A stretch of DNA of 64,000 bases, taken from positions 3,566,072 through 3,630,071 of the forward strand of contig NC_134034.1 of assembly GCF_964204645.1 (NCBI RefSeq). Reading direction: 5' to 3'. Every line of letters starts with the position of its first letter. Positions within the stretch are counted from its first letter, which is position 1. Below are positions 11,795-63,972 of the stretch, piece by piece. Source of the stretch: Tubulanus polymorphus (lineage: Eukaryota > Nemertea > Palaeonemertea > Tubulaniformes > Tubulanidae). The position numbers and the translations under genes are program-made. The notes under the pieces were generated by a model. That model ran no database searches. It was not told the origin of the DNA and saw only the letters and a program-made list of their open reading frames with translations.

Positions 11795-12070
11795 TCCAGG
11801 TTTTCAATAGAGGATTCCACTTGTGGCAAGTGAGGATCCGCCAGGTGTCACTAGTGTGCAGTAGGACATCGACTACTGCAGCAATAGAGGATTCCACTTG
11901 TGGCAGGTGAGCATCCGCCAGGTGTCACTAGTGTGCAGTAGGACATCGAATACTGCAGCAATGGAAGATTTAACTGGTGGCAAGTGAGAATCCACCGAGT
12001 GTCGCTAGTGTGCAGTAGGACATCAACTACTGCGGCAATAGAGGATTCCACTTGTATCAAGTGAGGATCC
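11795..12070. repeat. ~81-bp dispersed minisatellite, array A
   Basis: Three and a half units of GAGGATTCCACTTGTGGCAA, then GTGAGGATCCGCCAGGTGTC, then ACTAGTGTGCAGTAGGACAT, then a CGACTACTGCAGCAATA part. The same family forms arrays at 33298, 37335, 45695 and 49740 and single units elsewhere. Confidence 0.9.
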
Positions 12071-18600: not shown

Positions 18601-20130
18601 TGAAGTAGATTCATATATTCACCGGACTTTGGCCCGAGATATTTTCCGAGATCACGCGAACATATTTTGCCCGGGGCCAATCCCGGGTACGAAATTCCTG
18701 TTCAATTCGGGGACCAAATACGGCCCGGTCGAAGACGTCGGACCAGATCCGAGGCCACATTTCAAAAGACAGACACTTTATCAGCGCACTTTCAAAAACA
18801 CTTCACACGTGTGTTCAGCACTTCACATCAGACATTTTTGATTGAGAATGAATTACAAAAATCAGATATTAGACATTCTAGGAAACATCCTTTCAACGAT
18901 GATTGTCCGCACTTAAGTTCAGGACCTTTTTCACCTGAGATATTTAACTACGAACACGAGAAATTTATATCAGCACACACACTCAAAAACTGATTTAGTC
19001 AACATTTCACATACGTACGTCCAGAACTTTACACGAGACATTTTTAGTTGAAAATGAACTAAAAACACCAGATATTGGACATTTTTCAGCTCACTTTCAA
19101 AAACTGATCATTAAGCATTAAGGCTTCATGCTACAAGATGGGAAATGTCTTGTAGGGGAAAGTTTAGAGTGAGGATTCACTAGTGGTCACTCGGTTGATT
19201 CAATTACTTCTACATTTCAATGGGGTTGATTTTCAACGAACTCTGAACTGGATTTTTAGGCTCCCAAATGGAAATGTTGTCAAACAAGTCATCAAATAGA
19301 TATGAGATTGACGTGCCCAATGAGTGTATGGTAGAGTTTTATTAGAAATTGATTTTACTAATGAGAAAAATTGACTCGAATTTAAATGAAATGTAGAAGA
19401 AATTGAAGTGCGGTAACCGAGTAACCACTAGTGACACCTGGTGGGTTCTCATCTGCCTAAGTGGAAGCCTCAATTGCCAGAGTAGCGGCACCGGTACCCC
19501 ATTAAATTTGAATCAATTTTTCCTATCAATAAATCATTTTCTAGTGAAATCTATACCAAATCTATATCTATCCCATCACTTGTTTGATCATATTCGGATT
19601 TGGAAGTCTAAAAGTTAAGTTTAAATTTCATTAAAAAAACAAACTGATTTTCACTAGTGTTTCCCAGGACCCGGTTCCACGGTTCTGAGTTGAATTCGAC
19701 AGTAGAGTTAAAACATCGAAAATGAACCAACTAACTCTGAGTAAACTCTAATTCACGGTTTTGGAACCGGGCCGGGTGTTATAAAGCGCCACCTGGTGAG
19801 GGCCGACGGTTGCCCGTTGTAAGACGAATAGATCATCATTCGGCACATACCGTGGTCGTGTTGATGGGACTCGCTCCAGTTCTGCGCGATTTCCGGCCCG
19901 TGCACTTCGAAGTTGCCGTGGTTGTGTGGGTCGCTGGGCGGCAGGACGGCCTCGTTGCTCCGGTGCGGCGCCTGCGCCCCCGCCGCCCTCGAGGCCGACG
20001 GACCCCCGGAACTCGCGTACATCACGCGCACGCTCGTCGGTCGCTGCAGCATCAATACGGTGACGAACGCGCCGCCGCAAAACGCCCCGAACAAAAACGA
20101 CACGAAGAAATTCTTTCCCAAAGACGCCAT
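12700..20130 (-). CDS. C1GALT1: Glycoprotein-N-acetylgalactosamine 3-beta-galactosyltransferase 1 (core 1 synthase)
   Basis: Golgi enzyme that adds galactose from UDP-Gal to GalNAc-Ser/Thr to make the core 1 O-glycan. Coding exons (minus strand): 20130-19851, 15865-15336, 14563-14423, 12966-12700; all have GT-AG borders and agreeing phases, giving 405 aa. Exon 1: short cytosolic N-end, one signal-anchor helix ([20 protein letters not shown]) and a His/Ser-rich stem. Exon 2: catalytic core with WAKRCN, the metal-binding DDD in [30 protein letters not shown] and an EDVEMGLCL segment. Exon 3: GDSRD and [10 protein letters not shown]. Exon 4: [12 protein letters not shown] and [10 protein letters not shown], then a Gly/Asn/Ala/Lys-rich tail longer than in vertebrates. 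An acceptor at 20159-20160 suggests a further 5' UTR exon. Introns hold a 58-bp satellite, a GATCGATC foldback MITE and a TTAA element. Confidence 0.95.
13836..14178. mobile_element. MITE with long GATCGATC-rich inverted repeats in C1GALT1 intron 3
   Basis: Left end AGGCGTTTTTACGAGCATGC continues with GATTTTTGCGATCGAT; the right end is the complement (CGATCGCAAAAATCGGATGC, TCGTAAAAACGCCT). About 343 bp, with subterminal copies of ATCGATCGCAAAAATCG repeated in the right arm. No coding capacity. Confidence 0.75.
14666..15209. mobile_element. Possible piggyBac-type (TTAA) element in C1GALT1 intron 2
   Basis: Bounded by TTAACCC at the left and GGGTTAA at the right (GAGTGCTAATGGGTTAA). A partial, inverted copy of the left region lies at 35330-35417 in an ELP2 intron and also ends GTGCTAATGGGTTAA. 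No transposase frame. Confidence 0.45.
15886..16866. repeat. 58-bp satellite in C1GALT1 intron 1, derived from a SINE tail
   Basis: About 16-17 tandem units built from TTAGCAGGTTTGAGGTTTCT, TGTTCCCCTCAACCCACTGA and GCGTCACTCAGGGTATTA. The unit is the complement of the 3' tail of the tRNA-SINE at 56580-56785. The array begins only about 20 bp upstream of C1GALT1 exon 2 (15865). One unit at 16620-16640 has an internal deletion. Confidence 0.92.
17270..17525 (+). mobile_element. Non-LTR retrotransposon 3' tail in C1GALT1 intron 1
   Basis: Ends TTCAATAAAGTTCTATTCTA followed by TTC, a poly(A)-signal-plus-pentamer tail typical of CR1/L2-like LINE 3' ends. Inserted antisense to the gene. No coding part remains. 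Confidence 0.5.
19183..19435. mobile_element. Inverted-repeat element flanking an 80-bp minisatellite unit
   Basis: Left arm ACTAGTGGTCACTCGGTTGA then TTCAATTACTTCTACATTTC; right arm is its complement (AAATGTAGAAGAAATTGAAG, CGGTAACCGAGTAACCACTAG). A minisatellite monomer follows at 19430-19500. The ACTTCTACATTTCAAT flank also borders the arrays at 33298 and 37335, so the minisatellite appears to travel with this element. Confidence 0.6.
19669..19774. mobile_element. Foldback MITE of the CCAGTTCCACAGTTGTGAG family, copy 3
   Basis: Starts GGACCCGGTTCCACGGTTCT and ends TTTTGGAACCGGGCC, with the usual AACATCGAAAATGAACCAAC core. Lies 76 bp inside C1GALT1 intron 1 from the exon 1 donor. Confidence 0.7.
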
Positions 20131-20301
20131 TTTTTTCTTTCTCGCCGATTCAAAATACCTGAAAAATAAAGCGTAAGTGGTTATTAGATTAGAATACGGA
20201 TATATTCGAATGAATTTTAGATCCACCATTTTTTTCCGAAATAACAGCTGAGTCAGGGTTTGTATCATCTCTGATTACTTGAATTAGTCTCTTTTTCACA
20301 G

Positions 20302-31500: not shown

Positions 31501-34500
31501 CTCAACTTTACCACAGTAAGAGACAGAGTCTACCGTATCTCAAAAACTCTTAGTATTTGACACCGACTCCAGGTAGAATTTTATCAGTCTAAACTTTACT
31601 GCAGTAAGAGACAGAGTCTGCTGTATTTCTCAAACTCTTACGCAGTATTTGACACCAACTCGGGGTAGATTTTATGCAGTCTCAACTTTACAGCAAAAGG
31701 GACTGTATTTCTCACAATATTTTTGCTCAGTATCTGACACCAACTCCGGGTAGAATTTTACCAGTCTCAACTTTACCGCAGTAAGAGACAGAGTCTATAG
31801 CATTTCACAAACTCTTTCTCAGTATTTGTCTGACACCAACTCGGCGTAGAATTTTACCAGTCCAAACCTTACCACAAAAAGATACAGATTCTACTGTATT
31901 TCACAAACTCTTACCCGGCGTTTGAATCCATTCCGGGTAGAATTTCACCCGTCCATAAATTCAATCACAATCAATTTCTTACTTACTCTTTTCTCTAAAT
32001 CTCCCGATACGTCGATCTCGCAAATTCTCGCGTAATTTTCCAAGAAGTTTTTCGGCGCGTCAAAAATCCGTATGACCTTTTCGTCGGCACCCGACGCGAA
32101 ACGATACTTGTTGATCATCGTCAAACACTTCAAGTCGTATCCGTGAACCTGCGGCCGCGCGATTTCATGCCATACCACCTGCAAATATAGTAAGGTAGTG
32201 AGCGTACATGGTCGAAAAGTGGGGGGAGGGTCAAAAAGGAGGGGGAGAGGTTAGTTACTGAACTGTGACAGATTGAAAAGGGAGAGGAAGTAGTAAAGGG
32301 AAGGAGAGCGGGATAACGAAAAGGAGGTCATGACTAAAAGGAGAGGCAGTCAGAAGCCAGACTGAACCGTAGTTTGGACTATTTACATAAAGCAATGGAG
32401 AGGGGATGTCGAAATAAGGGAAAGACTATGAGCCAGATGCTCCTAAGTTGGTTAGAGTTAACCGATGGATAGTTGACATAGCGACAATCAAAAGTTCATT
32501 GTTACTACAGTATTTATCGGCCGGATATCTTTAACCAACTTTTGCTCGACTGGACCCGGAAATGACGAAAAAGAGAGGGGTGGCAGAAGGCAGATAGTGA
32601 CACGAGGGGCAGTCAGTAACCTGACTGCACTTCGAAACTAATGTTTCAGGGAGGTTGAAGGTGCTAAGCCGCAATAGCATAATCTCAGAAAACTAAAGCC
32701 CAACGCACACAACGCAGGGCAACAGAGAAACATTGTTTCTGGAAACAATGCTTCCAAGATCAAACATGTTTGATTTGACGAAATGGGTTTCGGTCTCTTG
32801 TTTCCGTGTTTCTTGTTTGCAATTGCATTCGGCTTGATAAACTTTAATACAATATCATAAAAGAACGAACCTGTTTATCGGGTTTAATCCAAGGTGCGTG
32901 AAGCCTGGTCGTCTGATCCGTACTGACTGTTAATAAATACTGTCCGTCGATCGGGTCCCAGGACATGTCCTCGACTGAATTAAAATGGCCGCTTAAAACG
33001 ACCCCCGTTCTCCACTGACTGTCATTCTAAAAAACGAAAAAACAAAGATGAGCATCATTAAACCGATAAAATCCCGGATATCAATTCAACCTCAGCCCGC
33101 TACTGGATCGTGTTTAGGTTCCAATTCTTCGCATTACCTGAGATAATTTCCACAAGTGGAATCCGCCTTGATATCCATGAGACAGAATACTGTAACCATC
33201 CGGGCCGAACTGACAGCCGTATAGACCTAACGTGTTTCCTCCCACTTCACCAACCCGTACCTGAATAGAGAAACATGATGAGAACAAACATTATGGTGAG
33301 TGAGGGCCCACCAGGTGTCGCTAGTGCTCTGTACTAGGACATCAACTACCGCAGCAATTGTGGATTCCACTTGTGGTAAGAGAGGGCCCACCAGGTGTCG
33401 CTAGTGCGCTGTACTAGGACATCAACTACCGCAGCAATTGTGGATTCCACTTGTGGTAAGTGAGGGCCCACCAGGTGTCGCTAGTGTGCAGCAGTAGGAC
33501 ATCAACTACTGCAGTAATTGTGGATTCCACTTGTGGTAAGTGAGGGTCCACCAGGTGTTGCTAATGTGCAGCAGTAGGACATCAACTACTGCAGTAATTG
33601 TGGATTCCACTTGTGGCAAGTGAGGGTCCACCAGGTTTCGCTAGTGTGCAGTAGGACATCAACTACAGTGACAATAGAGGATTTCACTTGTGGCAAGTGA
33701 GGATCCACCAGGTGCGCTAGTTTTCACTTTTTCTTCTACCTTTCTATTAGAATCGAATCAACTTTGGTCCTTGAAGTATATCATCAAAATGTACTAAATG
33801 CCGAGAGTAGAAAAGTGAACACTCATATCTTTTCACTGAATTGAAACTGATTTGTATGTTACATGAATCCAACTGTTAGTCCCAACATCCAGTTGCATGG
33901 TCCCTGTTATCATATGAAATGGAACAAACCTGTTCTAACCAAACGCCGGTTTCCGGGTCCGGATTCCAAACGATCATCGTTTTATCCATACTCGCCGACA
34001 ACAGACGCAACGGTCGACGCTGAGATTTCCCCTCGTGCGGATCGCTTGGTTCACGCTGAGATTTTCCCTTTAATTTTCTCTGCCAATGAACGGCGTATAC
34101 CCAGTTGTCGTGACCGGACAAAACAGTCTCCAAAACAACGGCGTAGCAACATTTCTCACCTAGAACAAGTAAATGATAATGTTTAAGGTTTTTTATTTCA
34201 AAGAAAAATTTTTTCTAAATTTCACATCGTCCTTTGACCAGTTTCTTTTTACCACCTTGGGAATTGAAGTTAAGCTCAGAAATAAAATGAATGCTTAATA
34301 ATCATCAGTGGTGTCTAGTTCATGAAGGCATTCTAACTTATCGAAGAAACTAGGGCTACGAGGACGGACACCGTGCCCACTCGGGAAGTAGTTCGAAATG
34401 CTCAACAATATGATGATTTCGATAATATGTAACATCCTCTGGTGAACATTATGTACAGAAACCAAAGACCTTGATTTTCCCCACAGCTTCTCATCAGCTA

Positions 34501-37500: not shown

Positions 37501-38402
37501 CCAGTCCCACTACTGCGCACTAGCGATAGAGGATTCCACTCGTGGCAAGTGATGATCCACCAGGTGTCACTAGTGTGTATTTGTACATCAACTCCTTCCG
37601 CAATAGAGGATTACAATTGCGGTGAGGATCCAGCAGGTGTCGCTAGTGAGCAGTAGGACATCAACCACAGGATTTCACTAGTGACACGTCGAGATCCACC
37701 AGGCTTTGCTAGTGTGTAGCTGTACATGAACTACTCCCGCAATAGAGGATTACAATTGCGGCGAAAAATCCACAGGTGTCGCTAGCGTGAGTAGGACATC
37801 AACTAGCGCCTCAATAGAGGATTTCATTTGTGGCAACTGAGGATCAATAGGTGTCTCTAGTGGTAGTTTTTGAGCTTTAAATTGCTTCTACATTTCAATT
37901 AAAATCCGATCAACTTTTCTGTGAATTAAATCAATTATCAATGAAAACTTTACCGGTAAAAAACACCGGGAGAATAAAATCAACTTTGAATATCCGACCT
38001 GATTGTTTGAATTTCTCTTCCAAACGTTCACCGTTTTATCAGCGGATCCTGATACGAATTCGTCCTCGTGTAGCTGGTCCGGGCGCGGTATCCACTGGAT
38101 ACAGTTCACTCGATCCCGGTGACCTGTGACGACTTCAACAACTTTATTAGCCTGAAACACATTTTGACGTAGAATATGAATCGGGGACATCAGAAGAGTA
38201 AGGACTGCAGATCTTTGGTTAGATCCAGGAAACTCTGCATCTTTTCACGACGAATACTCACGCTGGTGTCATAAATATGGCAGGCGTTCGCTGAACCGTA
38301 GCAAATAAGCTCGTTGAGACCCCAGCTGGCGCTGTTTGGGGTCCGATTGCAGCCTGAAGAAACGTAAATCGTGTCCACTAATTTCTTCATGGGCGCCGCC
38401 AT
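25563..38402 (-). CDS. ELP2: Elongator complex protein 2 (WD-repeat scaffold subunit)
   Basis: ELP2 is a double beta-propeller scaffold of the Elongator complex, which modifies wobble uridines in tRNA. I rebuilt 17 exons on the minus strand: 38402-38262, 38151-37999, 37305-37137, 35870-35722, 35634-35568, 34958-34788, 34159-33930, 33260-33138, 33026-32871, 32178-31987, 31208-31052, 30742-30612, 29594-29417, 28324-28203, 27345-27215, 26373-26263, 25731-25563. Nearly all borders are GT-AG with matching phases, giving 2550 nt, 849 aa (human about 826). Diagnostic stretches: [116 protein letters not shown], and the end [16 protein letters not shown]. The exon 2 donor (CAG|GTCGGA) is weak. The start ATG sits in a GCGGC-rich context. 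Introns are full of MITEs and minisatellites; no coding break seen. Confidence 0.97.
26495..27085. repeat. ~33-bp minisatellite in ELP2 intron 15
   Basis: About 18 units of GGTGTGGTGAGTTAGTAAGG plus GACATCAAAACA. Several units contain GTGAGT and GTAAG, which look like splice donors on the strand opposite to the gene. Confidence 0.9.
27410..27505. repeat. ~81-bp dispersed minisatellite, short array in ELP2 intron 14
   Basis: One full unit and part of another: GCAAGTGAGGATCCACCAGG, GTGTCGCTAGAGTGCAG, ending just 65 bp from ELP2 exon 15. Confidence 0.8.
28485..28779. mobile_element. piggyBac-like MITE, copy 1 (ELP2 intron 13)
   Basis: About 295 bp between two TTAA tetramers. Ends TTAACCCTTTCAGTGCG and CAGCACTGAAAGGGTTAA are inverted repeats; subterminal CACCGCATTGCGGTGT palindromes recur. 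TTAA targets with CCC-starting ends are the hallmark of the piggyBac superfamily. No transposase. Confidence 0.8.
29008..29146. mobile_element. Foldback element with hammerhead-like motif (ELP2 intron 13)
   Basis: Inverted arms of about 35 bp: ATTTGACGCACGAGCTTTCG with CTACTAATGTATAG, repeated in complement at the other end. On the plus strand the right half reads CTGATGA, a CTACTA/TAGTAG hairpin, CGAAA, GC-UCGU-GC, GTC: the order of a hammerhead ribozyme core with a very short stem III. The inverted arm shares most of the motif on the other strand. Confidence 0.5.
30104..30210. mobile_element. Small dispersed repeat, pair member 1 (ELP2 intron 11/12 region)
   Basis: GGGCCAGTTGCTCAATAGTT, then GTGGATAGTTGACATA, CATTGTTACTA and TATCGGCCGG. 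A second copy at 32432-32560 keeps the same order (GATGGATAGTTGACATAGCG, TTCATTGTTACTAC, TTATCGGCCGGATATCTTTA). Likely a MITE with weak terminal pairing. Confidence 0.55.
30317..30595. mobile_element. piggyBac-like MITE, copy 2 (ELP2 intron 12)
   Basis: Starts TTAACCCTTTCAGTTCG and ends CTCTGAAAGGGTCAA, so the right TTAA has mutated to TCAA. It shares the GATGGCAGCACCTG centre with copies 1 and 3. Its right end lies about 10 nt from the donor of ELP2 exon 12 (gene on the minus strand, donor 30606-30611). Confidence 0.8.
31290..31950. repeat. ~95-105-bp minisatellite in ELP2 intron 10
   Basis: About seven diverged units of GACACCAACTCGGGGTAGAA, TTTTACCAGTCTCAACTTTA, CCGCAGTAAGAGACAGAGTC and TACTGTATTTCTCAAACTC. 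The array stops about 35 bp from the edge of exon 10. Confidence 0.88.
32432..32560. mobile_element. Small dispersed repeat, pair member 2 (ELP2 intron 9)
   Basis: Second copy of the repeat at 30104-30210, ending GCTCGACTGGACCCGG. Confidence 0.5.
33298..33725. repeat. ~81-bp dispersed minisatellite, array B (ELP2 intron 7)
   Basis: Five units of GGATTCCACTTGTGGTAAGT, GAGGGCCCACCAGGTGTCGC, TAGTGCGCTGTACTAGGACA and TCAACTACCGCAGCAATTG. It starts about 38 bp from exon 8 and is followed by a TTCTTCTACCTTTC flank like those at 19205 and 37880. Confidence 0.9.
36833..37126. mobile_element. piggyBac-like MITE, copy 3 (ELP2 intron 3)
   Basis: TTAACCCTTCCAGTGCG to CAGCACTGAAAGGGTTAA, both TTAA tetramers intact, about 294 bp. 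Its right end is only 4 nt beyond the donor hexamer of ELP2 exon 3 (37131-37136). Confidence 0.82.
37335..37870. repeat. ~81-bp dispersed minisatellite, array C (ELP2 intron 2)
   Basis: Six or seven diverged units with GAGGATCCACCAGGTGTCAC, TAGTGTG, TAGGACATCAACT and ATAGAGGATTCCACT; several units are shortened or rearranged. Followed by the ATTGCTTCTACATTTCAATT flank. Confidence 0.88.
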
Positions 38403-44560: not shown

Positions 44561-47500
44561 ATGAGTTTGGAAGAATTGTTTTCCTGGCTGGCGACAATTC
44601 TAGCGATCGGACAACAGCTTACAGGAATGTAAGGAAACTTGATACGGCTAGAAAGACGATACCTTGTTTCTTATAATCGGCCGGGTCACTTTCGTAAATC
44701 GCGACGAAATTTGTGATCAGTTCAACTGTATGAATGCCATGGACCAGTCTATCAGCTGACCGGCCGGGTCAACTTAAAAGCTCAGCTGAAATAAGAAACA
44801 AGGTATCAATTATTTTTAGCCTGACATTTAGATTCAGATTAGATGTTTCAGTATTGAGGTAGGCTACCTGCCGCGCACACCAGATGACGCTCCAATATTA
44901 CGCTTTCAATGGTAGAAAAAACCATGGTTCGTTTCCGATGAAATGCGAACTGAATTTTAGATGTCTCGAAAACGGCACGAGTTATCAAAAATATTGAATA
45001 GTTAAAAGGAGGACCTTTCTACTCATAGCGTATGGTAAAGATTTACCCGAATATGAATTTACAGATCAGTAAAGTTTATTCAAACTTAATCGAAACATAG
45101 AAGAAATTGTAGTTATTCATTTACCGTCCATGCTTGCCACGGTAACAGCGCCGGTACCTCATCGGCCCGATTGATTTGCGATCTTTGCTGAATGTTCGGT
45201 TGTAATTTCTTTCAGACAAATATGTAAGCGAATAATCAAAGATAGAAAATCGGATAGCGTGCAATTTTTTCCATTCGTCGCGATGTTTACCAGGTAAATA
45301 TGTATAACGATCGGCCACAAGGGGGTACTTCTGTTGGGAGGGGGTACTTCTGTTGGGAGGGGGTACTTCTGTTGGGAGGGGGTACTTCTGTTGGGATTGT
45401 TAATGTCCGACTGTACACTATTGTCACGAACCTGGTGTATCCTCAATTGCATTGGAACTGGAATCCTCGATTGCCGCAGTACAGGCTACTGTACCCTAGG
45501 GCGAACTCTTTTATCAGATCGGAGAATCCGTTTGCCTCCAATCGTACTCTTTTATTGTTCACGTGACTTTTTGGAGTCTTTGAAACCTCCTTTCTGTCGA
45601 GGTGGTGTGATTCGGATTTTGTGTGGAGCCAACCGGAGATTTCGGACGGAGACTTCAGAGGTCATAAAAGAGTTGAGCTCTAGTCTTACTGCAAGCTAGC
45701 ACTAGCGACATTTGGTGGATCGTCACCTGGTTGAACCTCACTTGCTACAAGTGGAATCCACTATTGCTGCAGTAGTTGATGTCCTACTGCTTACTAGTGA
45801 CACCTGGTGGATCCTCACTTGCTACTAGTGGAATCCACTATTGTTACAGTAGTTGATGGCCTACTGCTCACTAGTGACACCTGGTGGAACCTCACTTGCT
45901 ACTAGTGGAATCCGCTATTGCTACAGTAGTTGATGTCCTACTGCTCACTAGTGACACCTGGTGGAACCTCACTCGCTACTAGTGGAATCCGCTATTGCTG
46001 CAGTAGTTTATGTCCTCGGCCCACTAGTGACATTTAGTGGCTCCTCACTTGCCACAAGTAGAATTCTCTATTGTCGCAGTAGTTGGATGTCCTACTGCAT
46101 ACGAGCTACAGTTGTTGGTAAATCCCCACAGTGAGGATTCCCCAGGTGTCAAAAGTGACACTAATCATTAGGAGAATCCCCATTGCTGCAGTAGTGTGCA
46201 CATTTGTGTCACCTGGTGGATCTTCACTTGCCACAAGTAGAATTCTCTATTGTCGCAGAAGTTGGATGTCCTACTGCATACAAGCTACAGTTGTTGGTAA
46301 ATCCTCACAGTGAGGATTCCCCAGGTGTTAAAAGTGACACTAATCATTAGGATAATACCCATTGCTTCAGTAGTGTGCACACTAGTGCCACCTGGTGGAT
46401 CTTCACTTGCCACGAGTGAAATCCACTATTGCCGCAGTAGTTGATGTCCTACTGCACACTAGCAACACCTGGTGGATGCTCACTTGCCACATGGGGAATC
46501 CTCTATTGCCACAGTAGTTGATGTCCTACTGCACACTAGCAACACCTGGTGGATTTTCACTTGCCACAAGTCGAATCCACTTTTGCCGCAGTAGTTGATG
46601 TCCTATTGCAAACTAGCGACACCTGGTGGATTTTCACTTGCCACAAGTGAAATACACTTTTGCCGCAGTAGTTGTTTTCCTGCTGCACAGGACATAACTA
46701 AACTCGTCTATTACTGAAACAGGCCTAGTTGATGTCCTACTATACACTAGCGCACCTAGTGGACCCTCACTTGCCACTCTCACTAGTGAAACTCTTGAAT
46801 GTTGCAGAATTCATTGAGATTCGGCATATAATTTGCGTATTCGCAGAAAAATAAATCATATCAAAAATGCAGTCGTTATAACGGAATTGTGTTGTTTCGT
46901 TTTTTCCAGTTGTACAGTTTGGTTACGTTATGGTATATTAAGGGAAGACAGTGCAATCATTATAGTTAACATATGCGGCTCGACGCTGCAGTTCATTTAC
47001 TGTTTCACGTATTATATTTTTACCAAACAAAAGGTTCGTATACGTAGTTTCACGATCATCGGAGAAAATATTCCAACGTAGAATAATACAGGTTAGGCCC
47101 CACCTGATCGGGATGATTTACGACCCATGAATTTCATCCGGTTTAGAAAGGATGTTTCCAACGAACGTGTTAATCTGAATCATTCATCCGGTTTAGGGAC
47201 CATCCGTTGTTCAGTACGTACGCAAATATCTGTCAATTTGCGATCTGCATTAATTGTATGCATTTTCACAGACCTCCCTCCCCCTATCGTGCGTACTTAA
47301 TACTAAATTGATGGTCCCTTTTCAATGCACATATTTATGTATGGATGGACTGTGGGATCATTCATTCATTACGTACATATAAAATTTGACTTTTTCAAAT
47401 CTTTTACATCGTGTCTATCTGTATCTTCTTTAAAAAGACAATATCAAACAATCGAAAGGCGTAATTTGTTTTAAGCCGCGACTATTTTCTAGATCTGCCG

Positions 47501-49412
47501 TATCCATTTTGAAATAACCGTTCATTCATCTTTTTATTTTCAGTCCGTTGTAAATAAACAGATAACGATCGGTTTGTTTATGTTGTTTCCGATCCTGATT
47601 TACACGCGGTTTATTTCGCCGACTCGAGAATCGGCCGTCGCGACGCTCGGTTTGTACTGTTGCACCGTGTCTGTGATATCGTACGGTTCACCGCTGTCCT
47701 CCGTAGTACGTATCGATTCGAAATGGCTTAAATATTTTCCCATTAAGCCCTACGGCTATAGAACTGGGTAAAGCTTACACGACCGTGGAACTTAGTCCAG
47801 ATTCAGTTTTTACCCAAACAACTGTGGAACTGGATCCAGAGTCAAATTAATCCCACTCAACTGTGGAACTGGCTGCAGATTAGAAATAAAACCTGCACAA
47901 CTGTAGAACTGGATCCAGATTCAGTTGAAACCCGCACAACTGCCAAACTGGATCCAGAGTCTAAATGAACCCGCGTTGAATCCATCCTCCCCAGCAGGGA
48001 TTCGAGCCTGATGGCATTTAGGCTGGCACAGTAAAAAACCTGCCGCACTAGCCTTAAGCCTTAAGATTTTGTCGTTATTAGCCAATCAGAAAGCCTGTTT
48101 TATTTTAGCCCAGGTTTTTTCCATTCGTAGTTTTTCCATAAAATTTGTCTCGGCGATTATACAACGAGCAATCTGATTGGTGCGGCCAGTTTGTGTGCGG
48201 AAAACCTGCACACCCGGTCTAGTGCGGCAGGGATTCGTGCTGTGGCTGAGTGTAGCGATACCAACAAGTTTGAATCCCTGCCGGCAAAGTATGGTGCAAC
48301 CAGATAAGATTCAAATTAAACCCTGTTTGCTTGCATGGACGATGAATTGAATTTGGTAATGATTTTCAGAAACAAGTGATTCGAACGCAAAGTACATCTG
48401 TGATGTCATTTCCTCTGGTGGCGTTTAACGTCGTACTCGGTGGATTGTGGTTTATTTACGGAATCATTCGACACGATAAATATATTCAAGTGAGTGAAAT
48501 AAAAAAATGCGTAGTTTGAGAATCTGAGAAGATTCGACCCCAGTGTGTTGAATAATGAGCATATTGCTGTAGTGTCTCTACACCGCAGTGCAGCGTATTG
48601 TTAGTTACTGATATTTCAATGTTTTGATCGATGCTGCCATCTTTCGAAAGAGATGAAAACTACAGTTAACCCCCGATATACCGCCCTCCCATGTACCGCA
48701 ACCTCCGCCTACCGCCAGTCTCTATGCAAATACATAGTAAAACACCCCTGATATACCACCAATACTGCCAATATCGTTCAGCACCGATGTGGGCGGTATA
48801 TATCGGAGGTTGACTGTAATTACTAATGACATCAATAAACTGTGATGTGGTGTACTAGCAAAGATCATCACTGATATATCAGTGTTTTCAATAAGAAATT
48901 AACAAGCCAGGTCCCTTTGAAAAACAGAAGGGTCCCATAATATGTCAGTCCCGGAAATGAAAGCTGTTTTGAAAAAACAGGCGGGTCCTTTACAAACGAC
49001 AGACGGGTCTGGGACCTGGCTCTTATTGAAAACACTGTATATACACGGCACTGCAGTGTAGATGCGCTGAAAGGCTTAAGTAATTTGTGCTGTACCTTCG
49101 AATTATAATAATGATCCAGATCAATTTTATTAGTCCCGAATGATGCAGATCAAGTAGGTTTAACAGTACCTCGGATTACTGGTAGACTGGATTATTTTCA
49201 TGTGTCTCGAACGTTCAGGTTTTACGGTACCTCGGATATCTCATGAACCAGATTAATTAAGACATATTTTTCACGCTCGGTTTCGATTTTTCTATTTTCA
49301 GGTACCGAATTTTATAGGATTTATTCTCGGATGTCTTCAGGCGTCGTTATTCGTTTTGTATCCGTCGCGATCGTCGCGGACTATAAACGCGAAGTCGACG
49401 GTCGTTATATAA
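44561..49412 (+). CDS. SWEET1: SWEET-family sugar transporter 1 (SLC50A1)
   Basis: Bidirectional sugar (glucose) uniporter of the plasma or Golgi membrane with seven helices in two MtN3/saliva triple-helix repeats. Exons: 44561-44628, 45216-45293, 46910-47033, 47544-47705, 48370-48489, 49302-49412; all borders GT-AG, phases agree, 663 nt, 220 aa, the normal family length. First repeat: FSWLATILAIGQQLTGM, a QICKRIIKDR loop, FFPFVAMFTSCTVWLRYG and IIIVNICGSTLQFIYCF. Second repeat: QITIGLFMLFPILIY, VSVISYGSPLSSV, VIRTQSTSVMSFPL, VVLGGLWFIYGI, and VPNFIGFILGCLQASLFVLY. The conserved SPL, RTxSxxxMxFPL and VPN motifs are present. A usual Pro in helix 1 (SGxP) is replaced by TGMQ. Introns carry a CGGCCGGGTCA MITE, minisatellites and a triple MITE nest. 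Confidence 0.96.
44645..44823. mobile_element. MITE, CGGCCGGGTCA family, copy 3 (SWEET1 intron 1)
   Basis: GATACCTTGTTTCTTATAAT at the left and AATAAGAAACAAGGTATC at the right are inverted repeats; both flanks continue as GGCTAGAAA and TTTTTAGCC. Starts 17 bp after the exon 1 donor. Confidence 0.78.
45318..45396. repeat. 20-bp tandem repeat (SWEET1 intron 2)
   Basis: Four units of GGGGGTACTTCTGTTGGGAG, just past exon 2. Confidence 0.9.
45695..46790. repeat. ~80-bp dispersed minisatellite, array D (SWEET1 intron 2), inverted
   Basis: About 13 units in the opposite orientation to arrays A-C: CACTAGTGACACCTGGTGGA, TCCTCACTTGCCACAAGTGG, AATCCACTATTGCCGCAGTA, GTTGATGTCCTACTGC. A longer higher-order unit (about 190 bp with GTTGGTAAATCC) is duplicated at 46020-46390. 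It fills most of the DNA between exons 2 and 3. Confidence 0.92.
47780..47965. repeat. ~40-bp minisatellite (SWEET1 intron 4), same family as 1-410
   Basis: Four to five units of ACAACTGTGGAACTGGATCC plus AGATTCAGTTGAAACCCGC, starting about 75 bp after the exon 4 donor. Confidence 0.85.
48667..48819. mobile_element. pogo/Tigger-like MITE, nested
   Basis: CAGTTAACCCCCGATATACC at the left and GGTATATATCGGAGGTTGACTG at the right, flanked by TA on both sides. A second copy of the family lies at 51592-51768. It interrupts the piggyBac-like MITE exactly at a TA present in the intact copies. Confidence 0.78.
48884..49037. mobile_element. hAT-like MITE, nested
   Basis: CAGTGTTTTCAATAAGAAAT with GCCAGGTCCC at the left; GGGACCTGGCTCTTATTGAA with AACACTG at the right. 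The CAGTG terminus suggests hAT. The duplicated target is unclear because the site is TATATA-rich. Confidence 0.65.
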
Positions 49413-54471: not shown

Positions 54472-55710
54472 CTATGTTTTTTTTGGTGTATAATCCGCGT
54501 TCGTATTACACCGATATAAACCCATTAATAAGTGAATGAATTTCCTCCGAAAAACTGGCATGGCTCCGACGTATATGAAAAAGTTGACGCAGAAAACCGA
54601 TTGCCGCAGTATATAAAACGCTCTTTCTAAACGGAACGCGTTCGATAGCGCGTAGAAAGTGTTCCTGTACGCTGGCCATTTGCCGACAGTCTTGAAAACA
54701 ATCCGTATAATTCTATTGAGGTAAAACAGAAAATTGCACATTGCACTCGGCAGAACAAGCGCTATGAACGTGATAACGACAACGAGAAGAGTTTTACTGG
54801 CTGAAGATTGATGTCGATCTGTTGTTCTTCTCATCGGTAGATCAGATATTCTATTTCTTATTATAGCAGTTTTTATTGATAGAATAACTATGAGAAAAGA
54901 CGGTAAAATTTCTTGTGAAAGTGGATTTAAAAATACGTATAAAATGTTTACAGGTGATTTCGAAGACAGAAAATCAGGAGATTTACAACTCCAATAGTGA
55001 ATGGATTCATTGCGTGTGGATCTGTGACGTTCTACAAGACGAATATCACTTTGTGCAATAATGTTATATTGTCCTAAAATAGAAGCCCACAACCAGACGC
55101 CAACTACCGCCATTTTACGTCTCCGAACGGTGACCTGTTTCCTGTGAAAGAAAGGAAAACGAATCGATACGAATCTTTCGATGGCGATCACTAAAACTGC
55201 GTAGTTTGATACAGCAACGGCCGGTTGGTATAACAAAGTTTTGAGGAAACACCACGGAATCAACCTCTCGTGAAGATGTTGAAAATAGTAATAGAAATAG
55301 TAAATGTATGGACATCGTGTTCTGACATCAGTTAGTGACATGGAAAATGTGTTACAACTGTGCAATCCATTGCTATAGAGGAATTTGATCATTTTTGGGG
55401 AAAATTCGCGAATCAAATGAAACATGATGACAGTTTGATCCGCAAACGCGATAGTAATCAGATAGGGGAACGTGCAACGAACCGACTGACAGCTCCGACA
55501 TTTTATCAGTAAAACTATAGTCAGAATATTGAAGAAATTTCCGATTGGAAGCAACAGCAGCGCTCGGATGTGATCGGTCCTAGCGATAGTATAGTCAAGG
55601 AATCCGAAGAAGGCGTGTGTTATAAGCCGATGACGAGTTATGGTGGTATAAGCGGTTGTAGTGAAATTGTTCACAGGTTCCAGTGAGGTAACCGCAGTCA
55701 ACTGATTCAT
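54472..55710 (-). CDS. Orphan class A (rhodopsin-like) GPCR, probable peptide receptor
   Basis: Intronless seven-helix receptor of about 412 aa; the first in-frame ATG is 55710. Visible marks: NFTT glycosylation site near the N-end; helix 1 PIGNFFNILTIVLLI (GN motif); helix 2 ITIAFADQTVIMF (A-x-AD); Cys at the base of helix 3 and IAIERFVSIRFPF (ERF in place of DRY); basic loop VTVRRRKMAVVG; helix 5 EILPSFLIVIL; basic third loop RRTTDRHQ; helix 6 VVITFIALVLPSAMC; helix 7 FCVNFFIYVGAMPVFRRKF (NFFIY in place of NPxxY). This pattern resembles the FMRFamide/TRH-type receptors expanded in lophotrochozoans; the ligand cannot be named. It is divergently oriented to the large receptor gene at 57743, and a damaged fragment copy lies at 63853. 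Confidence 0.85.
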   Translation of the reverse strand: MNQLTAVTSLEPVNNFTTTAYTTITRHRLITHAFFGFLDYTIARTDHIRALLLLPIGNFFNILTIVLLIKCRSCQSVRCTFPYLITIAFADQTVIMFHLIREFSPKMIKFLYSNGLHSCNTFSMSLTDVRTRCPYIYYFYYYFQHLHERLIPWCFLKTLLYQPAVAVSNYAVLVIAIERFVSIRFPFFHRKQVTVRRRKMAVVGVWLWASILGQYNIIAQSDIRLVERHRSTRNESIHYWSCKSPDFLSSKSPVNILYVFLNPLSQEILPSFLIVILSIKTAIIRNRISDLPMRRTTDRHQSSASKTLLVVVITFIALVLPSAMCNFLFYLNRIIRIVFKTVGKWPAYRNTFYALSNAFRLERAFYILRQSVFCVNFFIYVGAMPVFRRKFIHLLMGLYRCNTNADYTPKKT

Positions 55711-56579
55711 GTTATTATCAGGATGCAATCGTCAAGTCGCGGAATGGTTCAGAAGCGCGCGCCTACGCATTTGTTAGAACACTTAAAATCGATATTTCCA
55801 TAGAAAGATTGGTATTCAGGATATATAGCTCGGAACACAGCGCAATATTTCACATTTCGATGAAGTGTTTTCAGCTTTTCAGGCTTCTGATAGAAAATCC
55901 TTTCAGAAACTCTTACTGGTTAGATCCCATTATCTATCACGTACATCATCATTCGACCGAAATGAGGGAGGTTACCGTTACATGCGTTTCAGCCCAACAG
56001 CCCCCTGCCGAGGGGGATTCGGGTTTCAGCGAACGAACCCCCTAAAACTTTCAAAAGTGCCCTTCGCAAAGTCAGTGTCAAAGAAATATGGGTCGAGATT
56101 TTTCGAAATTTGGATACAATGTTCCATGTTTTTTTGGGCAGTAATTGACCAGTGACGTATTATCATCGCTCAGTCGATCAATGACATGTTTTAATGAGAC
56201 GCTGTTTAAATTAAGTTTAGGTTATCGAAAAAATTTAAGATATGTCCTTTTTCAGATATGTTCTTTTTCAATAGAAAAGTGCTCCTTTTCGCGTAGTCTA
56301 ATAAGTGCCCTTTGCGTTGAAATTGAACTGCTCCTCAAAAAAGCTCGGCACAAAGGCATGAAGAATCGAACTTGAATTCTTCGAGTAGGCCTACCTACGT
56401 AAATTCATACGTTTATTGAAAATGTGGTTTTACAATGACCAATTCTTTAAGTATGTAATATGGCTGCCCAGGAAGTGTCTTCTTGTTCTTCGGACCTCAT
56501 ATAAGTAAGTTTTTTTTTTCCATATTAATAAAGAAAGAAACTCGACTTAAACTGAGCATAGGTAGCGCTTGTGCGGAGA

Positions 56580-56785
56580 CCTGTATTTTTTAACACCCTC
56601 AACCCACTAAGCGCCACGCAGGGCATCGTAAGCAGGTTCGATGTTTCTTTTTCCCAACGGGGAAGAGACAATAGAAGAACCTTCGCCCAGGAAACTCTGT
56701 CGCCACCAGGGTTTGAACCCATAAATCCTGGATTGACGAGACCAGTGACCGGCGGCTTAAAACACTCGGCCACTGCGCCTCAAGC
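56580..56785 (-). mobile_element. tRNA-derived SINE (Ser/Leu-type head)
   Basis: Minus strand: GGCGCAGTGGCCGAGTGTTT (A-box) and ATGGGTTCAAACCCTGGTGG (B-box) with a long variable region between them, as in class II tRNAs. The 3' tail GAAACATCGAACCTGCTTAC, then GCGTGGCGCTTAGTGGGTTG, matches the 58-bp satellite unit at 15886-16866. Confidence 0.82.
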
Positions 56786-57221
56786 GCTCGTGTGGAGACC
56801 TGTATGGTGGCTGATTCGGGCCATACCAAAAAAAAATTCGAGTACAGGTATGATTTTTTATTTGCCCATTTTTGTGCGAGAATACAAAGAGTTTGGTTTT
56901 GATCTAGATTGGTCCACCAGCAATATTTCAGTGACACCCTACTGTTTTGACTGGTAAAATCATTAACCTGGGATGCATAAGAGCTTACCGTATTTTCATA
57001 TATACATTTTGTCTCAAGAGGGTCAGAAAGCTTCGAATCTCAAAAATTAAGACTATTCAAGAATTTTCGAGCAATTTCAAGAATTCGGAAATATGCTCGT
57101 TGCCTTCGGCTCCCGGCGGATGCGGTGCAAAGTATGGCATATAGTGACACTTGTTTTAATCCCCACCCCCCCCCCCCACCCCTTAAAACGAAATATGGTT
57201 TCGTCGCGGGTGATGATATCC

Positions 57222-57742: not shown

Positions 57743-60700
57743 ATGTTGGGTATGGAGCAGCGACTGAGAGCGCTGTTTATAGCATCGCTGATCGTCTGTC
57801 AAGTTCGGATCGCACGCGCTGATCGCGCAGACTCTATCGAGGAATCGTCTGTGACGGTGAGTTCGTCTTGTAACAACACGTGGTACGCCCTAGAATCTAC
57901 GTCCGGTTACATCGTTTCACCGAATTATCCGTCGTTAACGCGCGGTGTTGAATGTCGTTGGTTCATCAGCAGTTCTTTACCGGGTACTTTTCACGTCCAA
58001 GTTTACTACGACATCGAGACGTCAGTATTCTGCAACGATAACTACTTCTACGAAACCGATAACAGATTCTGCGGCGATGGAAAACACGAATTCCGCCGCA
58101 ACGATTCGATCTCGTTGATGTTGCGGGTTGAAGTCGACGCTGCGCGAGGTAGTCGGGTTTATATCATGTATCGTCATGAAAGAAGCCGATTGAAAATTAG
58201 ACACAACTGCAGAAAATATGGACTCAGATTGAATCATATGCAAACATCGAAGGGACATAAATTCAATTTGATATTTGGATCTTGCCAATTGTTCCTGGAA
58301 TGGATCGGGATGCCTGATGGTTTAGCGATGAATTTAACGTTTGTCGATTTTGCCTACTCGTCTAATTCTCATCAGGTCCCTTTTCGGATTCATGAAGGAT
58401 GGAACAGCAGCAGTGAACCATTAGCTCTCATACGACAACAAACCGGCCATCCACCTTCATCATTTTATACTAAAACAAACAAAGCCACTCTAGTATCGCA
58501 GAAAATTTCTATCAAGTCACAGCTTTTAGTTCAGATATACAAGATATCAGATTGGAACGTCTCTAATCCTTTGATTCAGATTTCTCATAACGAGTCGGGA
58601 GTGCTCATTCCCGATGACAACAGTTTACACGTAATAACTCGATCAAAACACTTATACTGCTGGTCTATCACGGTGCAGGCGTTACAGTACGTCGTCTTCA
58701 ACTGGACACATGATTTCGTCACATCCGGTGACGTCATTGGTGTATATAAACTAGAAGGGTTACGTGTTGTAGGAACTGATATTTTACTCGGTTACAACTA
58801 CCTGCAATCACTGAGTGTCAAATCTGACGGCTTTCTTATTGTATTGTGCGTATTAAAGAGAATGTTTCATGAATTCTTGAGTGTAAAAATATATTACCAA
58901 ATGAAAACAATTTCAATGGCTGATATGAAGGTTAACAATCGTCAGGTGAGTAACAGCGAAGCTAGTTTCAACTATTCAAAAAGTATGTCAATTACATAAC
59001 ACGAAGTTAATGGCTTATTTACGTTTAGGTATCCGAGAGTCGATTAAGATACATGACGCCGAACACATTGTTCCCAAGACGAAGGGACCCGAAGACCACG
59101 ATGAATTATCGCATCACTAAATACGAGTTTCGATGGAAAGTTGACATTTATGAAGAGAACTTAGAGCTAAAAGTTTTATCAGAGAACTGCGATCGAGCCG
59201 GATTTTACATATTTGACGGCGGTAATTTCACGGCTAGACGCTACGGTCCGTATTGTCCTCGTTTACGGACATACGACCGTAACGTCGTCAGCCTTGTTTC
59301 ATCAGGTGGACCGGTTACTGTGGCAGCATACGCTTACAACTGGGATGATCAGTTAGCAGTCGATACGAAGTCATTTCTCAGATTTCGTCCAACTGACTGC
59401 GACGGTTATGTCTTAAAGGAGGGGGAACTTCAGATATCCCTGACGTCACAGTGTCTCGTGATTACCCCTGAAAACCGACGCCTTCCGTTGAAAAGCATTT
59501 ATATATTATCGGAACACGAGTATCAAATTGACCGGTGTTTTCCGAATCATTTATCATTCGGGTCATGTAGCAGGTATTTGAGAGCGAGTAGTCAGTTTCT
59601 CGATAACGGTCTCATCGTATTAAACACGGTGAAAATACGATTCGCGGATCCATTCTGGAGAATTCCATTAATTGTTAAACTACGACGTAAATGTCAACTA
59701 TCAAAGAAACCCGAGACAGAATTACTTGAATTATCCATATTGAAAGATGAATGCGGGATTGTGCAATCGCTAAATTACCCAGGATCTTCTGAATATCAAT
59801 TTCAACCGTTATATTTCAAGTTTTTCCAAGCGTCAAAACGTGAGAAATTTCCATATTTCAGATTTGTTATCAAACACATTGAAAGGACACCGTGCTTTAA
59901 ATCATCTTCCAAAGACAAAGATCCAATTTTTTACAAACAAAGGATTGAGTCGAACGCCAAAATTCAACACGAAAATCAAATATGCGACGAAAATGCGATA
60001 CCGGGAATCGTATTTTATAGTCTTATCGATTACAACCTCTGGTTCGAGGTGAAAAGCTTTGTCCCCAGTTTTCGAGTACAATACATGTTAGAAAAGTCGT
60101 TACCGGTGAAACTGATTGAAAATATCTGTAAATCGGGATTTCTAGATTCGGGGATTTCCTGCGTAAAATACATCCGAGATGAACGCCTGAATTGGGAGAA
60201 TGCTGAACTGTACTGCAGACAAAAGTATGCGGGCCATCTACTCAGTATCAACTCGGAGCAGGAAATGATTGCTATTAAAACCTTATTCGCTACAAAACTT
60301 CTTAAAACTGCATATTCACAGAAAGCGCTTATAATGATGATCGGATTAAAACTGCAGGTAAATGTTATGATATTTTTGTTCAAAACTATACCTTGGATAT
60401 CCTTGATTGTGGAACAATTGACTTTTTATCTTAACATTTCAATTTTACGTTTTAGTTTAGCAGATACACGTGGACTGATGGCAAACCATTGAGCTACACG
60501 GAGTGGTATAAGCCTAGAAATAACGACACGATACCAGACGTTATTCAAGGATTGATATCTCCTCTAAGAAAACAACCGGTAAATGATGTAGATATGCCGT
60601 GTACGGCGATGATACTGAATAATCCACGAGGATCGGCGAACTGGGTTCGATTTCCCTGCAAAATTGAAGAGGTTCACACGAGTTTCATTTGTGAATCGGA

Positions 60701-63700
60701 AAAAGTCGACATCGAAAATACAGAAAAATGGACGAATAGAAACAAAACAGTTTTAACATCAAATTCAACAAAAAATGACACATTTGTTTTACGAGAAAAT
60801 GCGTTTAGATCCGCTGGTTTCGACGGATCGAACTGTACGATTGGTTGGCTAAGCATAAATAGAAGATGTTATCAAATACTGACAGACTGGAGTAAACATC
60901 GAGGTTTAGATATAAAAACTGCGACAGAGATGTGTCATGAAATCCGGGGGGAAATAGGCACTGTGATAACCAGTTACTCAGAAACTATGAATTTAATAAG
61001 AACATTTCACTATCAGAATCAATATAGTTCTATACTAACGATTTCTTCTAATGACACACTTCTAGTTATAAAGCCAATCATCACTAGAGATGAAATTACT
61101 TATATTCGATCAGTTAAATGGATAGTAAAACAGTTCGATATCGCGACAGATATGGCGCATTCTGTTGTGTGTTCATACAATGTTACTGGCGAACAGTTAG
61201 CTTCTATTAGCGGTTGTAAATCGTGGCAGTTTAAATGTAGCGACCAAAGATGTATCAGCGATCATCGCGTATGTGATACCAGACACGACTGTCTGCACGG
61301 CGAAGATGAACTCAATTGTACGAATATAAGTTTATACAGCCAGTTTAAATGCTATGATGGTCAGCAGGTCATATCAATTAGTGGTTTCTGTGATTTCATA
61401 CAGGACTGTGTGGATGGTTCTGATGAAAACTCATGTTTTCATCCCCCGTGTTCGTCCGAACAATTTCGCTGCAAAAGTGGTCAATGTGTCGGTAGGTCTA
61501 ACCGATGTGACGGAGTTGGCGATTGTTATGACGCTTCGGATGAAACGGAATGCACTGCCCAACTGTGTCAAGGGTTTCTATGTAACAGTGGAGACTGTAT
61601 CAGTTCTCAATTGTATCAGGATGGAGTCGTGGATTGCAGTGGAAGCCTTGAGGAAGACGAATTAGTAACATCAACTAATGTTACAGTGAATCCCACAGTT
61701 CAGTGCAATAATGTGAACCAATGTACAACTAACTTCACAAATCTTTGTACAGAATCCGATGAACAAAGATGTTCTTTCGATTCTCCTCATTGTTACTCTA
61801 GACGCCACAGATGTATTTTAGAAAGAATGACAAACGGTTACCCAGTTTGTAGATATCTTGAGCACGTATTGAGATGTGAAGAATTTGAATGTCCAGCTGG
61901 TACTGTAAAATGCCCAGCATCGTACTGTATACCAATCAGACAGGTGTGCGATGGTCAATCAGATTGTCCTAATTCGTACGACGAACAAAACTGCGGGACA
62001 TTTTCATGTCCAGGAATGTTTAAATGTGGCCTCGAAAATCGATGTATTCCGCAATCCGAAGTTTGTGACGGTGTGGTCAATTGTAAACATACATCTGATG
62101 ACGAGGCTTTCTGCAACGTCACGTGTCCCAGGGGCTGTAAATGTCAAGGGCATTTGGTTGATTGTGATGATACTAGTTTAACAACTATAACTAATCTTTT
62201 TACGGCATCAACTCGAGTTTTAATTTTGTCAAATACTGGAATTCTTCTAAGCGTGTCAAAGTTTTATTCGTTCGTTTATCTTCGTATGCTCAACATCTCA
62301 TCAAATGGATTGTCGTACGTAATGCCAAACTCGTTCTCAAACCTGCATAATCTGCATACGTTAGACCTGACATATAACAACATAACATCACTATCCACAA
62401 ATACATTCGCTGGTTTGTATAGTTTGAAATATCTGTTCATAACCGAAAATCCGCTACGTAATTTAGCGGACGATACCTTCCAAGATCTGAAGTCCCTTAA
62501 CGATCTCAATCTTCGCGGAATGTCCTTATTAGTGCTCGGTAGAAATATATTTAGAGGTTTATCTGCATTACAGTCGTTGAATATCAGCGATAACAAAATC
62601 CACCATATTTCACGATATGCTTTTGCGGGATTACCCGAACTTAGAATACTCGATATGACCAACAACTCTAAATTCCTTTCTGCAGAAAGAAGCGTCTTCG
62701 ACAATCTGACATCATTGGTCTCCTTGACGTCTGATGCTTACAAATTCTGCTGCTTAGCGCCAAATGTTGACCAGTGCCTTCCCGAAGCCGATCAATTTTC
62801 TTCCTGCTCTGACCTGATGGGTAACACGGTTCTCAAAGCGATCATCTGGGTCATCGCTTCATTCAGTTTCTTTGCCAACAATATCGTTATTTTATTTCGT
62901 TTTCGATCAATTCTACTTACCTCAGTAAAGCGTAACATATCTTCCGACATCCTTATCATTAATATCGCGGCTTGTGATTTTCTGATGTCGATTTATCTAT
63001 GTTTGATCGCGGGAGCAGATTACGTTTATAAAGGAATTTATTTCCTACATTCTGAGACATGGACGGACAGCTTATTGTGTAGTTTTGCTGGTGTTATGGT
63101 GACTATTTCCTGTGAAGGCTCATTGACGTTTCTATTTATTCTAACGCGTCATAGATTCTCAAATATCGTTAATCCATTTTCTCGAAGCCCGATTACATCC
63201 CCGAGATACGTGTGCATTATTTGTGTTGTATGTTGGTTATCTATAGGTACAGCTTCTACAATACCGCTGTCCCAATCGACTTACTTCGGGAATAATTTCT
63301 ATGGCACTACTGGAGTTTGTTTACCTATGAATTTGATTTCAATCGATGTCAATGCCTGGCAATATTCATTCGCTATTTTTGCTGTATTCAACTCGGTCAT
63401 ACTTGCTACGATAATGGGGACTTACGCGCAAATGTACAGACTCGTATCCGGAAGCAGGTCTGGTTCGGGTAGAGCTGATCCCACCGAACTGATTTTGGCA
63501 CGCAGGAGTCTGGTTATAAATCTGTGTAATCTTTTTTGCTGGCTGCCGTTAATTACCGTTCAGTTTTGTGCTTTATTTCAGGTAGAAATACCGAATCAGG
63601 TGGCGGCTTGGCTGGCGGTTCTTTTCTTGCCGATCAACTCGTCCCTCAATCCCCTTCTTTACACTATTCTCACTATTGATATGAAATCCATACAGGCAAA

Positions 63701-63722
63701 AACTAAACACCTACGACATTGA
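57743..63722 (+). CDS. Mosaic CUB / C-type-lectin / LDLa / LRR seven-helix receptor (type C LGR, GRL101-like)
   Basis: Exons 57743-58945, 59029-60357, 60456-63722; all introns phase 0 with GT-AG borders; about 1932 aa. Residues, roughly: signal peptide 1-27 (LRALFIASLIVCQV); CUB 43-145 with four Cys and GYIVSPNYP; diverged CUB-like regions to about 760 (CGIVQSLNYPG near 641); C-type lectin domain 768-925 (NWENAELYC, GHLLSINSEQE, WTDGKPLSYTEW), interrupted by intron 2; a second, diverged lectin-like domain about 972-1083; six LDLa modules from about 1098 to 1400, one degenerate, two with the calcium motif DGSDE/DASDE; a Cys-rich gap; LRR N-cap CPRGCKCQG at about 1402; about seven 24-residue LRRs; hinge KFCCLAP; seven helices 1638-1920 with NPLLY in helix 7. 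The helix 3 end is TRHRF in place of D/ERY. Relatives: Lymnaea GRL101 and relaxin receptors, which lack CUB and lectin parts. Ligand unknown. Confidence 0.9.
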
Positions 63723-63771: not shown

Positions 63772-63777
63772 AATAAA
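63772..63777 (+). promoter_or_regulatory. Polyadenylation signal AATAAA for the mosaic LGR
   Basis: AATAAA 49 nt after the stop codon at 63722. Confidence 0.5.
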
Positions 63778-63852
63778 CTACGGAATTCTGATACCGACGA
63801 CTCGTGAGGAACGCAAAACCCATTAACCCAAAAGTAATTAACAGGCTACGCG

Positions 63853-63972
63853 ACTCAAATGAAACATGATGACAGTTTGATCTGCAAACGCGATAGTTAT
63901 CAGAAAAAGGGAACGTGCAACGAACCGACTGAAATCTCCGACATTTTATCAGTAAAAGTATAGTCAGAATAG
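63853..63972 (-). pseudogene. Frameshifted fragment copy of the GPCR at 54472-55710
   Basis: About 120 bp nearly identical to 55411-55531, the helix 1-helix 2 region of the intronless GPCR, in the same orientation. An extra base in a run of T (CCCTTTTTC against CCCCTATC) shifts the frame, so helix 2 is lost. Similarity stops about 30 bp before the window edge and just left of 63853, so only a short piece is copied here, unless more lies beyond the edge. Confidence 0.75.

Follow-up and report, generated by a model that had tools for sequence, protein, structure and literature searches.

We detected, in a 64,000-nucleotide stretch of the nemertean Tubulanus polymorphus genome (assembly GCF_964204645.1, contig NC_134034.1, positions 3,566,072 to 3,630,071; hereafter the window, with positions counted from its first letter), a forward-strand gene for a receptor of 1932 residues. 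With a probability of roughly 0.7, we read this protein as an animal type C leucine-rich repeat-containing G protein-coupled receptor (LGR) of the relaxin receptor/GRL101 branch, which at its N-terminus carries a probable CUB domain, some 610 residues of unclassified sequence and a C-type-lectin fold, and whose predicted ligand is a protein. A Pfam scan of the whole protein recovered the LDLa modules (1.9e-28, six stretches), leucine-rich repeats (LRRs; LRR_8, 4.3e-26) and G protein-coupled receptor (GPCR) core (7tm_1, 5.5e-19) that a first-pass annotation of this DNA had listed, and reported neither CUB nor lectin. The modules of the core are arranged as follows:

61215 to 62114, forward strand: LDLa region, residues 1098-1397 (Pfam Ldl_recept_a, six stretches, 6.5e-36; cysteine positions)
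62124 to 62753, forward strand: LRR domain with an N-terminal cap, residues 1401-1610 (LRR_8, 4.3e-26, three stretches; about seven repeats by eye)
62814 to 63719, forward strand: seven-helix (7TM) domain and tail, residues 1631-1932, with a 19-residue tail behind NPLLY (7tm_1, 5.5e-19; RXFP1, 1.9e-42)

Compared with solved structures, the 7TM domain was closest to RXFP1 (E-value 1.9e-42, 149 bits), followed by FSHR (4e-21) and LHCGR (4.6e-21), both at 79 bits, TSHR (3.8e-20, 76 bits), the family-1 receptor chain 8w1z (1.7e-16, 64 bits) and LGR4 (3.3e-6, about 30 bits), a ranking of pairwise scores and not a tree. Six of the helices were visible as hydropathy peaks, and the seventh was placed by homology and the NPLLY motif. 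D2.50, R3.50 and W6.48, residue labels that follow class-A numbering, were all present, as was NPxxY. No relative of the 7TM domain was confirmed among the pattern hits in the viral and prokaryote collections viral_contigs (10 hits) and genome_contigs (83 hits). Six LDLa modules had been proposed, and six stretches are indeed there, but only four of them have six cysteines (1098-1132, 1176-1210, 1323-1357 and 1362-1397) and the other two have four; a further stretch with eight cysteines, 1261-1318, was assigned to no module. The LDLa modules lie directly N-terminal to the LRRs, and the hinge between the LRRs and the 7TM domain is short, the first hydropathy peak coming about 20 residues after Cys 1610. 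Type C LGRs are defined by LDLa ahead of the LRRs and a short hinge, and are divided into C1 and C2 by LDLa number, in the sections of PMC4561518 on LGR classes. Because the 7TM domain is closest to RXFP1, the LDLa modules precede the LRRs and the hinge is short, the receptor core is, as far as sequence comparison can place it, a type C LGR; the LRR number is type A-like, as in that class, and multiple LDLa modules are a feature shared with GRL101, a type C2 receptor. Placement in the C2 (GRL101) group would be by LDLa count rather than by a tree.

The gene model of the first-pass annotation, three in-phase exons encoding about 1932 residues, was borne out at the positions proposed, with GT/AG introns and 1932 codons plus a stop that contain no internal stop:

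57743 to 58945, forward strand: exon 1, residues 1-401, with the signal peptide, CUB and the start of the unclassified ectodomain (open frame, upstream in-frame stop, GT donor at 58946)
58946 to 59028, forward strand: intron 1, 83 nucleotides, GT/AG
59029 to 60357, forward strand: exon 2, residues 402-844 (open frame, coding-like codon usage)
60358 to 60455, forward strand: intron 2, 98 nucleotides, phase 0, GT/AG, interrupting lectin domain 1
60456 to 63722, forward strand: exon 3, residues 845-1932 plus stop (open frame of 1088 codons)
63772 to 63777, forward strand: polyadenylation signal AATAAA, 50 bases past the receptor stop codon

The three frames are not chance, because the numbers expected for open frames of 425, 487 and 1088 codons (4.5e-7, 1.5e-8 and 6e-23, given 64 kb, six frames and the window stop frequency of 5.4%) are far below one. 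We also scored codon usage with a measure trained on exon 3, against a background of 100 overlapping windows and 600 frame readings (mean -0.282, standard deviation 0.064, maximum -0.064). In their own frames exon 1 (+0.044) and exon 2 (-0.011) scored higher than all 600 background readings and higher than their other five frames. Compared with NCBIfam, exon 3 resembled four LRR families of bacterial proteins, all far under the cut-off.

For the exon 2/3 join the sequence itself gives good support, because a single C-type-lectin fold straddles it: the domain starts in exon 2, its WTDGKPLSYTEW stretch sits in exon 3, and the solved chain 2afp matched the joined piece at 1.3e-7 versus 0.0049 for exon 2 alone, for which the top match was another chain (9.1e-4). 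A division into one gene for the CUB and lectin part and another for the LDLa-LRR-7TM part, which the first-pass annotation had allowed for, is firmly countered by this fold, parts of which lie on both sides of intron 2. The join of exons 1 and 2 is likely. Translation reading through a retained intron 1 meets a stop that closes the chain at 418 residues, and a variant polyadenylation signal (ATTAAA) lies within exon 1 at 58852; because of these two features, a short secreted form arising from intron-1 retention is possible. The same features would suit two genes, a secreted CUB protein made from exon 1 and stopping inside intron 1, plus a lectin-LDLa-LRR-7TM receptor that begins independently in exon 2 or earlier, but we consider this arrangement very improbable. 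The exon 2 frame begins right behind an in-frame stop, its first methionine is the ninth codon and no hydrophobic leader was found at its start by eye; intron 1 contains neither AATAAA nor ATTAAA, and the splice sites and phase are compatible with the join. An in-frame stop at 57719 also lies upstream of the receptor's ATG. The receptor is most likely made as one chain.

The first LDLa cysteine is preceded by 1097 residues, where the first-pass annotation had counted an N-terminal addition of 770. This head was divided as follows:

57743 to 57823, forward strand: probable signal peptide, residues 1-27 (hydrophobic N-terminus, by eye)
57869 to 58183, forward strand: probable CUB domain, residues 43-147 (Pfam CUB, cubilin match, four cysteines)
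58205 to 60120, forward strand: unclassified ectodomain, residues 155-765 (about 610), split by intron 1
60121 to 60701, forward strand: C-type lectin-like domain 1, residues 766-926, split by intron 2 (Lectin_C, 2afp, motif scan)
60828 to 61193, forward strand: possible degenerate second C-type-lectin-like region, residues 969-1090, with four cysteines (cysteine spacing by eye only)

Residues 43-147 form a probable CUB domain. The four cysteines that had been claimed for it are all in place, at 43, 71, 97 and 110, but the excised region reached 20.4 bits (6.6e-4) against a Pfam cut-off of 21.4, and 18 bits within a longer piece. Cubilin was the top solved match both for the domain alone (4.1e-8) and for the whole of exon 1 (2.9e-5), whole-chain E-values that sum several CUB repeats and of which the single best repeat reached 0.015. 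The lectin domain split by a phase-0 intron, as proposed, was confirmed: when excised, it matched Lectin_C at 1.5e-7 and 32.6 bits (cut-off 22.6), and its best single-domain solved chain was 2afp (1.3e-7). LY75 matched as a whole chain at 4.8e-12, a value summed over repeats of which the best single one reached 0.14. Residues 766-926 are, on these profile and structure matches, a C-type-lectin fold. The second lectin-like domain of the first-pass annotation did not hold up to the same comparisons. Residues 969-1090 have, by eye, the cysteine spacing of the fold minus its inner pair; they matched no Pfam family and their top solved match had an E-value of only 1.9, while a single-sequence AlphaFold2 model of residues 966-1095 was unusable (mean predicted local distance difference test score, pLDDT, of 34.3). 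By profile and solved-chain comparison, the lectin and CUB regions are both distant from their solved relatives.

Between these domains, residues 155-765 make up a third of the receptor protein and gave no family above the Pfam cut-off in any of five pieces with nearly full cover, nor in larger pieces; two chance-level matches to unrelated families stayed under the cut-off (E-values of 0.031 and 0.22). A series of degenerate CUB repeats, suspected here by eye, was not supported: none of the five pieces matched CUB. No internal repeat was seen among 28 pairs drawn from eight segments by single-sequence hidden Markov model comparison (top probability 1.1%), a weak method that fails to relate even the two lectin regions. 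A single-sequence AlphaFold2 model of exon 1 without its signal peptide was likewise unusable (mean pLDDT 32.2). With the core as the recognisable part of the protein, and with no convincing family for residues 155-765 or the second lectin region, the receptor could be an ordinary endocrine GRL101/relaxin-type receptor whose head is a passive spacer. We regard this as doubtful: the 1097 open codons before the LDLa modules, 28 cysteines (residues 43-1083) and 15 N-glycosylation sequons, out of 25 in the ectodomain, suggest instead a head that is folded and selected.

Whether such a head would bind sugar or protein was addressed by motif scan. The motifs that canonically mark calcium and sugar binding in C-type lectins, EPN/QPD and WND, were absent throughout residues 766-1100, where the WTD of WTDG was the sole match to a wider pattern. 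The glycan sensing suggested in the first-pass annotation was accordingly weakened as a leading reading by these missing motifs. Because of their absence, classical calcium-dependent sugar binding by the head is unlikely and protein binding likelier, though some C-type-lectin folds without EPN/QPD/WND do bind sugar. Among the solved chains that resemble lectin region 1 are LY75, the PLA2 receptor and snake-venom snaclecs, folds with protein ligands, and also the sugar-binding mannose receptors, CEL-IV and a collectin. Since these similar chains include both protein and sugar binders, structural likeness by itself does not decide between the two kinds of ligand.

We suggest that the ligand is a protein, an insulin/relaxin-like peptide being the likeliest candidate, that it would dock on the LRR arch, and that the LDLa string and the head, as protein-binding modules, may capture, restrict or co-receive it. 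Binding would then be relayed to the 7TM domain, which should activate a G protein because most of its usual switch residues are kept (D2.50, R3.50, W6.48 and NPxxY). An insulin-like ligand has been proposed, not shown, for GRL101 in the relevant passages of PMC8286064. Several observations weigh against our reading of the receptor or parts of it. In the DRY motif, histidine takes the place of the acidic residue, which in the aligned RXFP1 is glutamate, and basal activity or coupling may differ as a consequence. The last LDLa module is 3 residues from the LRR cap, where the linkers of RXFP1 and RXFP2 have 32 and 25 residues (PMC4561518, in its account of the linkers), and because of this spacing the tethered-LDLa scheme of RXFP1 may not carry over to that module. 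In the head, the CUB region is one bit short of its Pfam cut-off with a top single-repeat solved match at 0.015, a hydropathy peak at residues 363-381 (1.52, threshold 1.5) falls inside the supposed ectodomain, and the case for joining exons 1 and 2 comes from splice sites, reading phase, codon usage and a leaderless exon 2.

Elsewhere in the window, at 5015-5731 on the forward strand, we detected an apparently secreted cystine-knot-like open reading frame (Cys_knot 1.9e-4, 22.1 bits against a cut-off of 24; mucin-2 3.7e-4), which by eye we take to resemble the bursicon-type ligands of LGRs.

The same anatomy would serve a pattern-recognition or pathogen-sensing GPCR, in which the head binds non-self and the relaxin-type 7TM domain reports it; this role is compatible with a type C LGR whose ligand is a protein, and we hold it to be possible, if rather unlikely. 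Snail GRL101-like genes of the lectin-LDL-LRR-7TM type are located in a schistosome-resistance region, where associated variants extend across the cluster and haplotypes differ by presence/absence, as described in the portions of PMC12297450 on this region. A recognition role stays open because these lectin-bearing relatives occupy that region, and the distance of the lectin and CUB regions from solved relatives also fits it. However, the sugar motifs are missing, tblastn of the whole protein found no receptor paralogue within the 64-kb window (next match at an E-value of 4.1), and the validated and top-outlier snail variants are in non-coding parts of an adjacent RING/IAP gene (PMC12297450, in the same portions, which suggest but do not show a sensor role for the snail receptors). 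By analogy, a lineage-specific recognition GPCR might also be imagined, in which CUB, lectin and a new fold at 155-765 act together and a non-self or surface-bound protein triggers the G protein; we think this improbable.

The remaining features of the window are not part of the receptor gene. Upstream of it, a rhodopsin-type 7TM frame, intact over 419 codons (7tm_1, 7.8e-12), was found on the reverse strand at 54472-55731, and 123 bases of that frame, covering its first two transmembrane helices by eye, recur, 93% identical, a little downstream of the receptor on the reverse strand at 63849-63971, where the frame is broken inside the copy and the copy may continue past the window. A Fringe/galactosyltransferase-like exon (4.4e-17) was detected on the reverse strand at 15258-15890, and the frame at 19753-20274 on the same strand resembles, by eye, an N-terminal exon of that gene. 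Two other window proteins compared with NCBIfam gave no family. At 56560-56800 on the reverse strand lies a tRNA-derived element like a short interspersed element, with a B-box-like GGTTCAAACCC, an A box by eye and 23-base terminal direct repeats; its tail (about 60 bases) shows a 77-85% match to the 58-bp units that make up the tandem array at 15888-16857. A palindromic repeat at 2640-2752 scored 53.1 and 51.5 on the two strands against Rfam MIR7504 (gathering score 83) and is probably a small inverted-repeat element. Minisatellite units of about 39 bp and about 77-80 bp, two families and sometimes multiples, are dispersed through the window, some inverted by eye:

30-341, 7519-8178 and 47777-47972: minisatellite arrays
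11805-12070, 33294-33721, 37530-37803 and 45724-46689: minisatellite arrays of the other family

Human RXFP1 (7tmw) was the top solved match for the 7TM domain and the best chain over the LRRs and 7TM domain together; LRP2 chains outscored it on the LDLa part alone. To our knowledge, RXFP1 has neither CUB nor lectin. It also differs in having one LDLa module, a 32-residue linker and 10 predicted LRRs, as given in the parts of PMC4561518 on this receptor. Lymnaea GRL101 and other type C2 LGRs resemble the nemertean receptor in that several LDLa modules precede the LRRs and the 7TM domain is relaxin-receptor-like (PMC8286064, PMC4079206 and PMC6267866, in the sections concerned), but Lymnaea GRL101 is reported to have 12 LDLa modules and six LRRs (PMC8286064), and these sections on type C2 receptors make no mention of CUB or lectin. 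The claim of the first-pass annotation that LDLa and LRR are all that type C LGRs carry is contradicted by published lectin (PMC12297450) and CUB (PMC9545775) versions, each seen in excerpts of these papers. The GRL101-like SudRes2 receptors of Biomphalaria sudanica combine a C-type lectin-like domain, LDL receptor class A, LRRs and a rhodopsin-type 7TM domain on one chain: 10 of the 14 SudRes2 genes encode lectin-LDL-LRR-7TM, two more do so without the lectin or LDL domain, and six genes elsewhere in the genome are annotated with the same domains, in passages of PMC12297450 whose authors call the lectin domain unique to SudRes2 genes relative to GRL101. Compared by description, they differ from our receptor in that "CUB" occurs 0 times in the main text of that paper and in forming a cluster, as opposed to one gene in the window. 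The reverse holds for type C LGRs of the cnidarian Nematostella and the placozoan Trichoplax, where CUB is added to an LDL-LRR-7TM receptor, but fibronectin type II is present and lectin is not mentioned in the relevant text of PMC9545775. Amphioxus Adhesion GPCRs also place Lectin C, CUB or LDLa before a 7TM domain, but belong to the Adhesion family and are not LGRs (PMC2246102, in its domain descriptions).

An LGR with both CUB and lectin was not found in a limited search of open-licence literature, made without animal protein databases, and none is described in the pertinent parts of PMC11863921, PMC2246102, PMC11521371, PMC4079206, PMC6267866 and PMC8242945. One paper in that literature, on brittle-star regeneration, contains both GRL101 and the term CUB domain. 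The gene adds to an existing class of receptor rather than founding a new one. GRL101-type receptors are orphans; insulin-like peptides have been proposed as their ligands (PMC8286064), and the snail members are located in a parasite-resistance region (PMC12297450), according to the sections of these papers that discuss them. A member with a lectin fold and a probable CUB domain shows an outer head freely rebuilt on a relaxin-type core, and offers a clear set of constructs (head, LDLa, LRR and 7TM) with which to ask where the ligand is recognised. Lectin and CUB are each already in print on type C-like LGRs, separately, and the Tubulanus receptor is a somewhat unusual member of this known group.

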